A stretch of 20,530 nucleotides of DNA from Planctomycetota bacterium (GTDB lineage: Bacteria > Planctomycetota > Phycisphaerae > UBA1845 > PWPN01). Each line of letters opens with the position of its first letter. The stretch's first letter is position 1. Positions 5,450 to 20,530 of this stretch are shown here, piece by piece. The position numbers and the translations under genes are program-made. The stretch covers positions 2,325,031-2,345,560 of the forward strand of contig CP070790.1 in NCBI GenBank assembly GCA_020346805.1, read 5' to 3'. Under the pieces are notes generated by a model that did not search any database, was not told where the DNA came from, and saw only the letters and a program-made list of their open reading frames with translations.

Positions 5450-6118
5450 CTATCTGGAAATATCACGCTGAATTATTAATGTAACCACTTCAGTTTGACC
5501 GGTACCACCCGAAGATGCGCCCTGATCCTCCACGAAAAACATAATTGTCTCGCCACATGGAACATCTACATCTCGATACACGGGACCATCCTGATCAGTC
5601 GGATTCGTCAGTACGTTGCCGGTGGCATCGGCAACCGCTGCGGCAATGGTCTTAAGTGCCTGGCATCGAATTCTTATCCATCGCGTGTCCTGACTGGGCA
5701 AAAGGTTGATGGGATTGGGAGCCAAGTTGTCATTGAGATTTACATTCTGAAATATTTCAACGAAATTTAGCATACATTCGCCATCATCCTTGCCGGGACA
5801 TGGACACGGACAGGCAACTGTTGAATTAGGATTGGTACAACATGCAAAACTGGGAGTATCGGGATATTGATCGGCGGGATCATACCCGTCGTGTGTATAA
5901 AGGGCCATTTGTACGGGAACACTTGTCTGATTGCTCAAAACGATACAGACAAAACCGGATTCACAACTGGCCAACGCCTGACTAATAAGGCTATCGTCAT
6001 CGGTAATCACCGAATAAGATGACGGCGTCGAAGGCGGAGGACAGCTGGCTCCGATAAAAATTGGAACTATGATGCAGCAGGAAACCAGAATAACAACCGC
6101 CCTGGATCGCATTAACAT
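5450..6118 (-). CDS. Small Cys-rich secreted protein, member A of a tandem family
   Basis: I do not recognise a named family. The start is the ATG at 6118, since AGGAG lies 6 bases upstream; an in-frame ATG at 6157 has no ribosome binding site. The product has 222 residues. Residues 1-25 are a signal peptide with a hydrophobic core, followed by Cys26 (IGASC), so it may be a lipoprotein, although the -3 residue is Gly instead of Leu. The mature part has a beta-rich core: FVCIVLSNQTSVPVQMAL near residue 56-74, a cysteine cluster (ACCTNPN...CPCPCPG) and a final strand VPCGETIMFFVED. The core motif and the C-G-x-x-I motif recur in the next two upstream genes. The nine or so mature cysteines suggest disulfides, thus an exported location. 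It is last in a probable three-gene operon. Its stop is TAG. Confidence 0.72.
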   Translation of the reverse strand: MLMRSRAVVILVSCCIIVPIFIGASCPPPSTPSSYSVITDDDSLISQALASCESGFVCIVLSNQTSVPVQMALYTHDGYDPADQYPDTPSFACCTNPNSTVACPCPCPGKDDGECMLNFVEIFQNVNLNDNLAPNPINLLPSQDTRWIRIRCQALKTIAAAVADATGNVLTNPTDQDGPVYRDVDVPCGETIMFFVEDQGASSGGTGQTEVVTLIIQRDISR

Positions 6119-6275
6119 TGTCAACTCCTGAATAATCCCATAATCAATCCATAACATACATCATTATATATATTCACCGATTATTTCTCCATCACCGTCT
6201 TGTCCTGCCGCGTCAAATTAGTCATCCTGAATGCGATGTTCTATTCAAGCGAGTGCACCCTCGCATCATAAACAG

Positions 6276-6860
6276 TCAGGGGATCATAAATCCGTTCCTT
6301 ATTAACAGCAAACGAATGGTTTCAAAGGTGTCCGCTCGGGTAAAGGGACCCTGTTGGGTAGCCCCGTCAATAATTCCTACGGATAGGGCGATACCGGTTT
6401 CACTTCGCGGATCTTCAGTGAACAAAAATACTATGGCGTCTCCACTGTCAAAATCCTGACCGGCCACCAGGGGGGGGCGGCCAAAGGGTATCTGCACGGT
6501 CAACCCGTTAGGATAAGTTGCCACTACAGAAGGTTCATTGACGTTGTTGGGATCGCCGATAGATATCTGAATCATCGGCCAGTCAAACAATGTGCCCACC
6601 ATCTTGTCTTCGGGACGCAGATTGACAAAATAATTAAACGGCGGTTGAACACTCCCGTCATCCGCGAAAATCCTAAGGTCCAGATCTGCAGTGGTCTGGT
6701 TCACTACACTGGTCAGTACAAAAGGCGTATCCCCCGGTGCCGTTGGGTATAATCCCCCAAACGTTTGGTTTATCAGTTCGGGGTTTAAGCAACCACCAAG
6801 AAACGGTGACAAGCAAATCAGTACACCGATAGCGAATAATCGGCACGAACGATGGAGCAT
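6276..6860 (-). CDS. Small lipoprotein, member B of a tandem family
   Basis: The product has 194 residues. ATG at 6860 is preceded by AGAGGAG at 6-7 bases. Residues 1-23 form a lipoprotein signal with the canonical lipobox LGGC (Cys24), so the mature protein should be diacylated by Lgt and membrane anchored. The mature region starts CLNPELINQTFGG and has the family core FVLTSVVNQTTADLDLRIF followed by DDGS, then a late motif FDSGDAIVFLFTED that aligns with VPCGETIMFFVED of member A and LECGRIIVIQATG of member C. No enzyme motif is seen; the sequence looks like a beta-sandwich. A run of eight G (6470-6477 on the plus strand) lies within the coding region and is prone to slippage. It is the middle gene of three in the same direction, 157 bases before member A. 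Function unknown. Confidence 0.75.
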   Translation of the reverse strand: MLHRSCRLFAIGVLICLSPFLGGCLNPELINQTFGGLYPTAPGDTPFVLTSVVNQTTADLDLRIFADDGSVQPPFNYFVNLRPEDKMVGTLFDWPMIQISIGDPNNVNEPSVVATYPNGLTVQIPFGRPPLVAGQDFDSGDAIVFLFTEDPRSETGIALSVGIIDGATQQGPFTRADTFETIRLLLIRNGFMIP

Positions 6861-6967
6861 ATAATCTCCTCTGCTGGTTATATGTTATTCAATAACTTAC
6901 CTTTGCTGCATTAATTCAATTGTCGCCTCTCTCCAATAAATGTATAATTCTCAAGCTGCCCGATCAT

Positions 6968-7435
6968 TTACCACACTTGTACCGAAAAAGTCGGGGGAGT
7001 ACCTGTGGCCTGAATGACTATTATTCTGCCGCATTCCAGGCTATCACCCATAACCAGACTCCCCAGATTGGTGGGGATGTCGACAGTACCACCCACATCC
7101 GTATAGCTGAAAGTCACAAAGGAAATAGTTTCTATATCGCAGTCCAGGGTCATTACATAATAATCTGCCGGCCCTGTGGTCAAAGACCAGTCTTTTAAAA
7201 TACCCCCCTCCCTGGTTACATCCAACTGGATTTCGACTGATGCTGCCGAATTATTCATCAGCAGAACCGCTACATAACCTTCCGGCGATTCCAGTCCGGC
7301 AATGGGATTGCCCCCCGCCAGCCCCACTAATGCCGGATTAAGCACACCGCAACCGGCGTTTAACGCCAGCCCTAACCCTGCCAGGGCAAGCATAATCGAT
7401 TGTCTAATGGACAGGCCCGCATACCGGTAAATCAT
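6968..7435 (-). CDS. Small lipoprotein, member C of a tandem family
   Basis: The start is the ATG at 7435, with AGGAGG about 10 bases upstream; an in-frame ATG at 7489 would put 18 charged residues before the signal peptide. The product has 155 residues. The signal peptide (1-28) ends in LNAGC (Cys29), a probable though not canonical lipobox. The mature start CGVLNPALVGLAGG resembles the CLNPELINQTFGG of member B. The family core is GYVAVLLMNNSAASVEIQL and the terminal motif LECGRIIVIQATG. There are two to three cysteines, no catalytic motif. It is the first gene of the leftward set, 107 bases before member B, and faces the Gfo/Idh gene across a short divergent promoter region. Function unknown. 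Confidence 0.74.
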   Translation of the reverse strand: MIYRYAGLSIRQSIMLALAGLGLALNAGCGVLNPALVGLAGGNPIAGLESPEGYVAVLLMNNSAASVEIQLDVTREGGILKDWSLTTGPADYYVMTLDCDIETISFVTFSYTDVGGTVDIPTNLGSLVMGDSLECGRIIVIQATGTPPTFSVQVW

Positions 7436-7678
7436 CGGGGGAAACCTCCTCGGGTGGGTAAAATCGGCCCGCAGCCTACCCACGGGCAACTGCAGATTCT
7501 ACATGATATTACGGCAAACCATGTGGGTCAGGCAAGGGCTTTGAATTCAGGCCGATTTTATGCCTCCCAGGCCGATTTGGCGTAGCACATACCACCACTG
7601 CAAACCGGTCTCAGTTGTTGTACAATCGGCACAAAGCAAAAGCGGATCACAAACAGTTTGTCAGCGAAAGGAACGATA
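7436..7678. promoter_or_regulatory. Divergent promoter region with repeated GGCCGATTT boxes
   Basis: Between the lipoprotein cluster and the Gfo/Idh gene the 11-mer CAGGCCGATTT occurs twice in direct orientation (7548-7558 and 7568-7578), exactly 20 bases apart, i.e. two helical turns. Its core is present inverted as AAATCGGCC at 7461-7469. Spacing and placement fit a regulator binding region serving either gene; the regulator is unknown. Confidence 0.4.
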
Positions 7679-18088: not shown

Positions 18089-18172
18089 AAAGCACCCTTG
18101 TAAAACATAAAAACATCGACATCGCTTTAAGGGCCGAAACCGTCCTTTATGGAGAATCAGTTTAGCCAATGT

Positions 18173-18201
18173 TTCACTTTTGGCAATTAAACCTCTATGA
18201 T
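18173..18201 (+). promoter_or_regulatory. Possible promoter of the Tat-exported gene
   Basis: TTCACT (18173-18178) and TATGAT (18196-18201), 17 bases apart, lie 57 bases before the GTG start at 18259. Fit is 4/6 and 5/6 to the E. coli consensus. Its place inside any longer reading frame from 18169 argues for the later start. Confidence 0.33.
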
Positions 18202-18258
18202 AAAGAAGGAGTCGAGCGGGATCACCCGTCAAATAAAGATTTTTACAGGAGATTAACG

Positions 18259-19260
18259 GTGAACGATCATACTGGCCAAGAAGATGTTTCCTTCGGTTTG
18301 GACGACATATATTGCAGTCAGGAAAGGCGGCGTTTTCTTAAGCGGTTGGCGGTGGGGGCCGCAGCGGCGGCCGTCGGAATCCAGCGTTTGCCCAAGGCCG
18401 AGGCAGCCCAAAACGAGCCGAAATTAATCGAGAGCGCCCCCGGCGAAATGCCCACGATCAAAATCGGAAAATATACCCTCAGCAGAATGGTGGTGGGTAA
18501 CAATCCGCTTGACGGAATCTCGCATTCCTCGCGCAACCTATCCGATCACATGCGCGAATACTTCACCGTAGAGCGCATCACCGAGTTTTTAATGCGCTGC
18601 GATAAGTTGGGGCTCAACGCCTGGCAATCGGAATATAAAGACAAGATTCATCGAGCACTGCAAAATATTCGGGAGCAGGGATCCAAGATGCAGGCCATGT
18701 ATCTTTCCGCCGATCATCCCCGGGCCCGACCTCTGAAGGAACAACTGCCGACCAAACCAATAGCCATCGTACATCACGGCGGAGTGACCGATCGTCTGTT
18801 CAGGTTGAACAGACATGAAAAGGTGCACGACTACCTAAAGCAGATCAAAGACGCCGGGGTGATGGCCGGTGTCTCCGCCCACAATCCGGACTGTATCAAG
18901 TATATCGAAGAGAAGGGCTGGGAAGTCGACTTTTACATGTGCTGCTGCTATCAGGTAACCAGGCCGGGCGAGCAGATAAAGGCGAAACTGGGAACCGTAC
19001 CGCTGGGCGAACCCTTCCTGGCCGGCGACCGCGATGAGATGACGGCAGTGGTGAAGCAGATAGACAAACCATGTCTGCTGTTCAAGATCCTTGCCGCCGG
19101 CAGGCTTTGCGGTAGCGACCGGGAGGTGGAAAACGCCTTTAAATATGCCTTTGCCAATATCAAAAAGACCGACGGCATCATCGTAGGCATGTATCCCAGG
19201 TTCAAGGACGAGATCGGCGAGAACGTCAAACTAACCCTCAAATACGGAAAACCGGCATAA
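18259..19260 (+). CDS. Tat-exported protein resembling aldo/keto reductase N-terminus (TIM-barrel-like), function unknown
   Basis: GTG at 18259 is chosen because AGGAG is 7 bases upstream; a TTG or other codon from 18169 would extend the protein across a promoter-like element. The product has 333 residues. A twin-arginine motif RRRFLKRLAVG follows a leader of about 18 residues, then an Ala-rich hydrophobic stretch to AEA: export of a folded protein. The mature part begins IKIGKYTLSRMVVGNNPLDG, like the first strand of aldo/keto reductases (G-x-x-VSxLGxG), and continues with repeated beta/alpha pattern: AWQSEYKDKI, AIVHHGGVTD, GVMAGVSAHNPD, KPCLLFKILAAGRLCG. The typical D-Y-K-H tetrad of aldo/keto reductases is not evident. 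Such proteins recur in planctomycetes, often near sugar-related genes; no reaction is assigned. It precedes the galM locus, separated by a hairpin. Confidence 0.68.
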   Translation: MNDHTGQEDVSFGLDDIYCSQERRRFLKRLAVGAAAAAVGIQRLPKAEAAQNEPKLIESAPGEMPTIKIGKYTLSRMVVGNNPLDGISHSSRNLSDHMREYFTVERITEFLMRCDKLGLNAWQSEYKDKIHRALQNIREQGSKMQAMYLSADHPRARPLKEQLPTKPIAIVHHGGVTDRLFRLNRHEKVHDYLKQIKDAGVMAGVSAHNPDCIKYIEEKGWEVDFYMCCCYQVTRPGEQIKAKLGTVPLGEPFLAGDRDEMTAVVKQIDKPCLLFKILAAGRLCGSDREVENAFKYAFANIKKTDGIIVGMYPRFKDEIGENVKLTLKYGKPA

Positions 19261-19277
19261 GATCGCGCCTTACATTT

Positions 19278-19316
19278 TGAGTTCGCCCTACAACTCACTT
19301 GTTTTTCTCGAAAAAC
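19278..19316 (+). terminator. Hairpin pair with T-tract after the Tat-exported gene
   Basis: TGAGTT/AACTCA (19278-19297, 8-base loop) is followed by CTTGTTTTTC, a T-rich tail, 17 bases after the stop: an intrinsic terminator candidate. A second hairpin GTTTTT/AAAAAC with CTCG loop (19301-19316) overlaps the tail. Confidence 0.45.
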
Positions 19317-19406
19317 AGGGATAATCTCTGCGTAGTTTCAACCGGCATTCGCACGAGACTGGTTCGTCAACGTCACATGAAAACAGGAAAAGCGGGAGGT
19401 TTTATT

Positions 19407-19517
19407 ATGAAAAAGGCATACCTCAAGCTGGGATTAACAATGGCGTGCATTCTGTTTTGCTCATGCTCGCAGGATTCTGCTGAAAGAGATGATACCATTA
19501 TGGCAAAAGGCAAATAG
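19407..19517 (+). CDS. Tiny lipoprotein signal ORF, probably the detached N-terminus of galM
   Basis: ATG at 19407 has GGGAGG 7 bases upstream, a good ribosome binding site. The 36-residue peptide MKKAYLKLGLTMACILFCSC... is a lipoprotein-type signal (lysines, hydrophobic core, cysteines at about 18-20) followed by a hydrophilic linker (QDSAERDDTIMAKGK) and TAG at 19515-19517. The frame continues without shift into galM: only TAG and GAG separate the two, with the second ORF starting at ATG 19521 or GTG 19527. Secreted GalM of related bacteria commonly start with such a lipoprotein leader directly before KKPFGKTPDG (known from family memory). So this is either one gene broken by a single-base change, a readthrough site, or a sequencing error, or a genuine upstream peptide. 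It could also be a real 36-residue peptide of its own. Confidence 0.6.
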   Translation: MKKAYLKLGLTMACILFCSCSQDSAERDDTIMAKGK

Positions 19518-19526
19518 GAGATGAAT

Positions 19527-20530
19527 GTGGTAAAGAAACCGTTCGGCAAAACTCCCGACGGCCAAGAGGCCGATTTGTTCACCCTTACCAATACCAAGGG
19601 CATGAAGGTCGATATTACCAACTACGGCGGAATTGTGGTCAGACTGCTGGCGCCCGATCGCAACGGCAAATTTGACGACGTGGTTCTGGGATTCGATACG
19701 CTGGCCGACTATCTCAAGGGCCATCCCTATTTCGGGACCATCATCGGGCGCTACGGCAATCGGATCGGCAAGGCCAGGTTTAAGCTGGACGGGGTGGAAT
19801 ACAAATTAGCGGCCAACAATAATAAAAACCATCTGCACGGCGGATTGAAAGGTTTTGATAAGTACGTCTGGGATGCCGAGCCCTTCAAGCGTGCCGACGC
19901 GGTAGGGTTGAAGCTGACCTACTTCAGCAAAGACGGCGAGGAAGGCTATCCCGGCAACCTTAAGGCCACGGTGTACTACTCACTAAACGATAACAACGAA
20001 TTGAAAATAGAATATTATGCCGAAACCGATAAGGCCACGCCCGTTAATCTGACCAATCACAGCTACTTCAACCTTGTCGGTGCGGGTAACGGGGATATTC
20101 TCAAACATGATTTGATGCTCAAGGCCGAGAAGTTCACACCGATTGACGACGGCTTGATCCCCATCGGCGAAATCCGCAACGTCAAAGGTACGCCTTTTGA
20201 CTTCACCAGGCCTACTGCCATCGGGGCCCGAATCAATCAGGATGATATACAACTAAAGTACGGTAAAGGCTACGATCATAATTTCGTGCTGGAAAGCGGT
20301 GGCGGAGCGTTGGCCCTGGCAGTGAGGGTACATGAGCCGACCAGCGGGCGGATCATGGAAGTGCATACCACCGAGCCGGGCGTCCAGTTCTATACCGGCA
20401 ATTTTCTGGACGGCAGCAAGATCGGCAAAGACGGGAAAGCGTACAAGCACCGCTACGGATTCTGCCTGGAAACGCAGCATTTTCCCGATTCGCCGAACAA
20501 GCCTGAGTTTCCTTCTGTGATACTAAGGCC
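19527..20530 (+). CDS. galM: Galactose mutarotase (aldose 1-epimerase), runs off the window
   Basis: GalM interconverts alpha and beta anomers of aldoses. The frame is open from 19518 to the end of the window, so about 334 residues are visible with few missing (typical length 340-350 plus leader). AGGAG at 19516-19520 sits directly against the ATG at 19521 (no spacer) but is 6 bases from GTG 19527, so GTG is the more plausible internal start. Motifs in order: FGKTPDGQEADLFTLTN, ITNYGGIVV, IIGRYGNRIGKA, NHLHGGLKGFDK with a substrate-binding His, VNLTNHSYFNL with the catalytic acid His, GYDHNFVL, TTEPGVQFYTGNFLDG and FCLETQHFPDSPN with the catalytic base Glu. Without the upstream leader the protein would stay in the cytoplasm, whereas its closest-looking relatives are exported. 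It follows the tiny signal ORF in the same frame. Confidence 0.9.
   Translation, partial: MVKKPFGKTPDGQEADLFTLTNTKGMKVDITNYGGIVVRLLAPDRNGKFDDVVLGFDTLADYLKGHPYFGTIIGRYGNRIGKARFKLDGVEYKLAANNNKNHLHGGLKGFDKYVWDAEPFKRADAVGLKLTYFSKDGEEGYPGNLKATVYYSLNDNNELKIEYYAETDKATPVNLTNHSYFNLVGAGNGDILKHDLMLKAEKFTPIDDGLIPIGEIRNVKGTPFDFTRPTAIGARINQDDIQLKYGKGYDHNFVLESGGGALALAVRVHEPTSGRIMEVHTTEPGVQFYTGNFLDGSKIGKDGKAYKHRYGFCLETQHFPDSPNKPEFPSVILR

Follow-up and report, generated by a model that had tools for sequence, protein, structure and literature searches.

How is a gene to be read when its export leader and its enzyme are written in one frame and an in-frame stop codon stands between them? The question is raised by the end of the window, as we call the whole analysed stretch of 20,530 nucleotides from a Planctomycetota bacterium, where a lipoprotein-type leader is followed by TAG and then by galM, the gene for aldose 1-epimerase. 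The answer that we favour was reached by comparing this locus with galM of the same family, of the class Phycisphaerae and of other phyla, and it concerns the start codons of the gene as much as its stop.

Results

A leader and galM in one frame, parted by TAG

The leader ORF (19407..19517) starts at ATG 19407, 7 bases after a Shine-Dalgarno-like (SD) GGAGG (19395..19399), and runs for 36 codons to 19514 (MKKAYLKLGLTMACILFCSCSQDSAERDDTIMAKGK). Its putative signal peptide consists of charged residues, a hydrophobic stretch and a lipobox-like LFCSC with the Cys and with F at −3, and a short linker then leads to the TAG (19515..19517). F at −3 is unusual for a lipobox; the lipoprotein-type layout as a whole is common to the window and its relatives, and 11 homologous fused leaders occur in the family. 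The arrangement described by a previous sequence-only reading, namely leader with ribosome binding site, TAG, GAG and galM in a single frame, is borne out by the sequence and by frame checks. The AGGAG that it placed over the stop (19516..19520), at a spacing of 6 to GTG 19527, is also present.

What that reading overlooked is ATG 19521, which lies directly 3′ of the GAG that follows the TAG and has its own SD-like AAGG (19507..19510) at a spacing of 8, in a place common to four relatives (L006, L007, L008 and L012). A cytoplasmic GalM from an internal start, as had been proposed, is still the likely product; its proposed start, GTG 19527, gives way to ATG 19521 as the likely one, because ATG is the start position kept in relatives, and GTG 19527 was for this reason ranked second as main start. 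The window does not contain two in-frame starts in one open frame, as the TAG cuts it. RNA structure at both starts was no more stable than in shuffled sequences (z 0.03 and 0.84), a simple scan of 19240-19560 detected neither promoter nor terminator, and ARAGORN found no tRNA in the window.

Counted from the conserved internal ATG, galM occupies 19521..20530 and stays open from the junction to the end of the window with no further stop or frame break. Its identity is supported by profiles and by alignment with a solved enzyme: it matches PF01263 (311.2 bits, cut-off 27, E 9.9e-93) and NF008277 (325.6 bits, cut-off 240), and the score against TIGR02636 galM_Leloir, 342.3 for a gene cut at its 3′ end, lies below the cut-off of 397.65. 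Residues 3-336 of the short form align with the solved GalM 1snz starting at residue 6 of the latter, so the short form is the whole GalM domain at its N-terminus. The translation contains NHLHGG, NHSYFNL and EPGVQFYTGN, which may hold the catalytic His and Glu. This is the single PF01263 match in its own genome (assembly 72.75% complete). The 3′ end of the gene is missing because the window is exactly one contig flanked by two 100-N gaps; the assembly, although presented as one contig, strings together short contigs across such gaps, with 36 of these in 220 kb sampled (L305-L315).

Two further observations concern other genes of the window. In the gene preceding galM (18169-19260), which has no Pfam match, a twin-arginine-like stretch (RRRFLKRLAVGAAAA) lies well inside the listed ORF, so the start is probably further in. 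On the minus strand, 5450-7489 holds three successive ORFs (235, 194 and 173 aa) whose N-termini resemble leaders; they seem to encode small secreted proteins that are related to one another.

Close relatives have the same frame without a stop

The first galM search covered 60 relatives in addition to the own genome; 12 of the relatives belong to the same family, and 11 of these 12 gave a match. Among the 12 readable galM N-termini of the family, 11 carry a leader fused in this frame with no stop, and L020, the twelfth, is a second copy that has no leader. The alignment with nearest relatives that the sequence-only reading had proposed as a check thus places leader and galM in one frame, and opposite the TAG all 11 leader-bearing genes have a sense codon, of varied identity; the idea that leader and galM were once one fused frame is well founded on this evidence, and a single substitution, as had been suggested, may have made the TAG. 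The junction codon of these 11 genes is ATG in nine, TTG in one and no start codon in one, and in several of them AAGGAG or AAGG precedes it by some 6 to 11 bases. Since all 11 leaders are fused and free of stops, the split in the window is, as judged from the alignment, either derived or an error.

Under the second of these options, the TAG would stem from faulty base calling or assembly, or from the allele of a minority strain, and the gene would have two starts and no interruption, as in its relatives. We regard this as a serious possibility, if somewhat short of an even one. The assembly is fragmented, as the 100-N gaps described above attest (36 in 220 kb), and 72.75% complete, the TAG lies 1.0 kb from a contig end, none of the 11 leader-bearing family genes has a stop there, and the leader is otherwise intact. 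On the other hand, no second stop and no frame break interrupts the galM body before the contig ends, and the variety of codons found at the TAG position among the 11 relatives indicates that this position is not constrained.

UAG is a normal stop in this genome

Readthrough of the stop, which had been put forward as one way to obtain exported as well as cytoplasmic GalM from the window gene, can be weighed against the use of UAG in the own genome. TAG ends 17 of 98 long ORFs sampled from it, and in none of the 17 does the frame continue past the stop for as many as 60 codons; this confirms the earlier view, drawn from a single gene, that TAG is a normal stop. The suppressor tRNA that the same reading had suggested looking for was not seen, the anticodon CUA occurring in 0 of the 21 tRNAs found in the own genome, a weak result at 72.75% completeness. 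General recoding of UAG was rejected on stop usage together with the lack of a CUA tRNA among these 21. The frame is identical on both sides of the stop, as readthrough would need, and no RF1 (TIGR00019) scores over the cut-off in the own genome, whereas 10 of 12 family relatives have one. The missing RF1 says little, however, because such a gap is expected in a genome 73% complete, and the relatives without RF1 are 84% and 55% complete. We therefore consider it extremely unlikely that UAG is read through or recoded here. The own genome does contain (L148) an RF2-type release factor and a short RF-like protein; the better release-factor match carries SPF, presumably the mark of the RF2 type.

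The leader-galM junction across Phycisphaerae

The 5′ ends read from the class were chosen by similarity to the window gene, and the larger counts include related species. Leaders were called with a home-made hydropathy rule, with doubtful calls for L179, L230, L244, L208, L212, L367 and L374, and an SD match was taken as at least 4 bases at a spacing of 4-12. In 105 leader-bearing genes, the alignment column at the junction holds ATG in 57 and TTG in 4, and in no other column from −8 to +8 does ATG appear more than 4 times. An SD match precedes 53 of these 61 start codons, a rate that compares with 89/105 at the leader starts and 30/35 at the starts of leaderless galM; the corresponding figures are 7/44 at the junctions that have no start codon and 50/505 at in-frame internal ATGs of the 98 long ORFs of the own genome. 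The spacing is 8 to 9 bases in 38 of the 53. Altogether, a start with a match of at least 4 lies at or near the junction in 58 of the 105 leader genes, and these are counted as two-start genes.

With one gene per genus (n=49), 25 genes have a match of at least 5, where synonymous redraws expect 13.4 (P 4e-7) and codon-order shuffles expect 5.1 (P 2e-14). When the linker encodes Lys-Glu at the SD place, AAGGAG encodes the dipeptide in 23 of 24 cases, to be compared with the codon usage of the body (AAG 497/755, GAG 332/574). As far as these comparisons go, the junction in the relatives itself looks like a translation start.

The same data bear on two other explanations of the site. One is that SD-like codons pause ribosomes for export of the leader and start no translation, and pausing at such motifs has indeed been proposed. 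It would leave unexplained why ATG falls in one column in 57 of 105 genes, why the spacing is 8 to 9 bases in 38 of 53, and why matches are so few (7/44) at junctions that have no start codon; we hold it to be very unlikely. The other holds that an ancestral leaderless galM later acquired a leader and that the internal SD and ATG survive from it without being used. The same site does occur in leaderless galM genes (a match of at least 4 in 30 of 35), and repeated recent fusions would leave such relics. However, the site persists in genes that are about 60 to 70% identical and have diverged linkers, and it exceeds what synonymous redraws yield, with AAGGAG in 23/24 Lys-Glu cases. Paralogues, considered below, speak to the same point.

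The window gene is placed by the tree among the fused two-start genes of its family. The sequence-only reading had conceived of dual localisation as a new switch made by the stop, a view that the class-wide presence of the internal start and its SD in uninterrupted relatives speaks against. Since these relatives already have the internal start, the stop would break an older two-product arrangement.

Junction starts beyond the class

Other planctomycete classes were represented by 25 loci from 16 genera. A start no more than 5 codons upstream or 3 codons downstream of the junction, with a match of at least 4, was found in 10 of these 16 genera and was absent from 6. Two Thermoguttaceae loci (L043 and L046) have a junction start with a match. 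Five Verrucomicrobiota loci (L070, L077, L079, L081 and L085) have a leader-bearing galM with a junction ATG and no match of 4; the SD criterion is thus not universal, since these five and many leaderless galM of family f11 have no such match. In the exported GalM lipoproteins of Bacteroidota and other named phyla, mostly the former (L027-L103, minus seven from Verrucomicrobiota/Thermoguttaceae), the leader is fused likewise, and they differ in having a junction ATG in only 1 of 65.

Two-start genes and leaderless copies

If the junction start supplies a cytoplasmic enzyme, a genome with another source of that enzyme might dispense with it. Copies were classed as two-start (leader, with a start and a match of at least 4 near the junction), leader-only or leaderless. 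Two or more matches were present in 65 genomes, of which 51 were fully read, 5 had an unreadable copy and 9 were partly read. In a first set of 30 multi-copy genomes with all copies read, 15 had leaderless copies without a two-start gene, 11 the reverse, 4 both and none neither (p 5e-5; by genus 0.0017, where one genus may occupy two cells). A follow-up check on 21 further genomes, picked solely as unread, gave 19 with leaderless copies only, 0 with a two-start gene and 2 with neither; they are mostly of family f11, in which the two-start state is hard to see because many leaderless galM genes have no SD match of 4. Pooled (n=51), the counts are 34 leaderless only, 11 two-start only, 4 both and 2 neither (p 1.8e-6). 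Among 60 single-copy genomes, which are about half of those found and were chosen by similarity, the gene is two-start in 40, leaderless in 14, including that of the window, and leader-only in 6.

Counted per gene in the tree set, the two-start state is found in 29 of 32 leader genes whose genome has no further gene for a cytoplasmic form and in 4 of 39 whose genome has one. The tree requires at least 19 changes between two-start and other states, 9 of them forced by well-supported branches. Restricted to phylogenetically independent pairs on well-supported branches, of which there are 5, the two-start state and the other source go in opposite directions in about 3.8 and together in about 0, which is not significant in a sign test (p 0.125). 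The scarcity of the site in leader genes whose genome has another source of cytoplasmic GalM also argues against unused relics, and we judge the relic explanation unlikely.

These counts rest on several decisions. Ten loci whose N-terminus was not reached were dropped (L016, L019, L258, L263, L272, L381, L393, L394, L403 and L407), L023 is a fragment of the L017 gene, and L271 was unused. L230 (misaligned), L179, L367 and L374 were counted as leaderless, although the last three look leader-bearing, and L244, L208 and L212 were counted as two-start on weak sites. The tree also contains a clade of 16 exported-only galM paralogues (L197, L216, L241, L203, L214, L240, L264 and others); in fully read genomes each member is accompanied by a leaderless or a two-start copy.

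Discussion

The open frames, the conserved starts, the SD enrichment and the division among paralogues can be read directly in the sequences. From them we infer that translation begins at both starts, and that the leader is processed and the products end up in different places. The model that we propose is as follows. Initiation at the first ATG would yield a preprotein with a lipoprotein or Sec leader and hence an exported GalM. The second ATG, exactly at the border between leader and enzyme, would yield a leaderless cytoplasmic GalM from the same gene, probably served by an SD of its own that the codons of the linker, often AAG GAG, provide. Where the gene has been duplicated, a leaderless copy and a leader-only copy may often share out the two roles. 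The window galM presumably descends from the fused two-start state, with the TAG now standing between leader and enzyme. Provided that this TAG is real, the leader ORF would give only a 36-residue (lipo)peptide, and GalM would be cytoplasmic alone, initiated at ATG 19521 and perhaps also at GTG 19527; ribosomes terminating at the TAG three bases upstream might help initiation at ATG 19521. What is proposed for the window depends on the TAG being real. We think it quite probable that galM is commonly a two-start gene in Planctomycetota and that the TAG in the window leaves only the cytoplasmic form. The broader proposition, that an internal start kept by selection throughout the phylum lets one galM make two products for two compartments, that duplication has repeatedly split these roles and that the stop in the window did the same, seems likely to us, with slightly more reserve.

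In eukaryotes, the use of alternative starts for dual targeting is well documented, and from bacteria single cases are known. A search of the open-access literature found, among the papers listed, none on an internal start of galM. With respect to the solved enzymes (PF01263; 1snz, 4rnl), the window galM shares the whole domain, and the N-terminus of its short form is that of cytosolic GalM; the leader and the internal start are what sets it apart. The closest parallel appears to be the N-terminal proteoform pairs with and without signal peptide revealed by ribosome profiling in Salmonella (OmpX, PagC and yfhG; PMC11005335), which likewise involve one gene, two in-frame starts, and a shorter form that has no signal peptide and a different predicted location. 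The Salmonella pairs were detected experimentally in one species, with localisation predicted (PMC11005335); the galM case is known from sequence alone, and its second start is kept phylum-wide at a fixed place, with an SD and with a trade-off among paralogues. In-frame internal starts within bacterial genes are also on record for infB, clpA, clpB, ssaQ and ccmM, each with an internal SD and start codon, and their products differ in domain content or partners (PMC11005335); for galM, the difference would be one of compartment, with the whole enzyme retained.

Annotation of start sites and prediction of localisation may, for such genes, name one product out of two. If the model is true, the case of galM would be deeply conserved and would lend itself to a clear evolutionary test, the two-start gene set against split paralogues, and the same comparative method could test how often bacteria place one enzyme in two compartments. 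The window, in turn, would represent a natural loss of the exported form of GalM.
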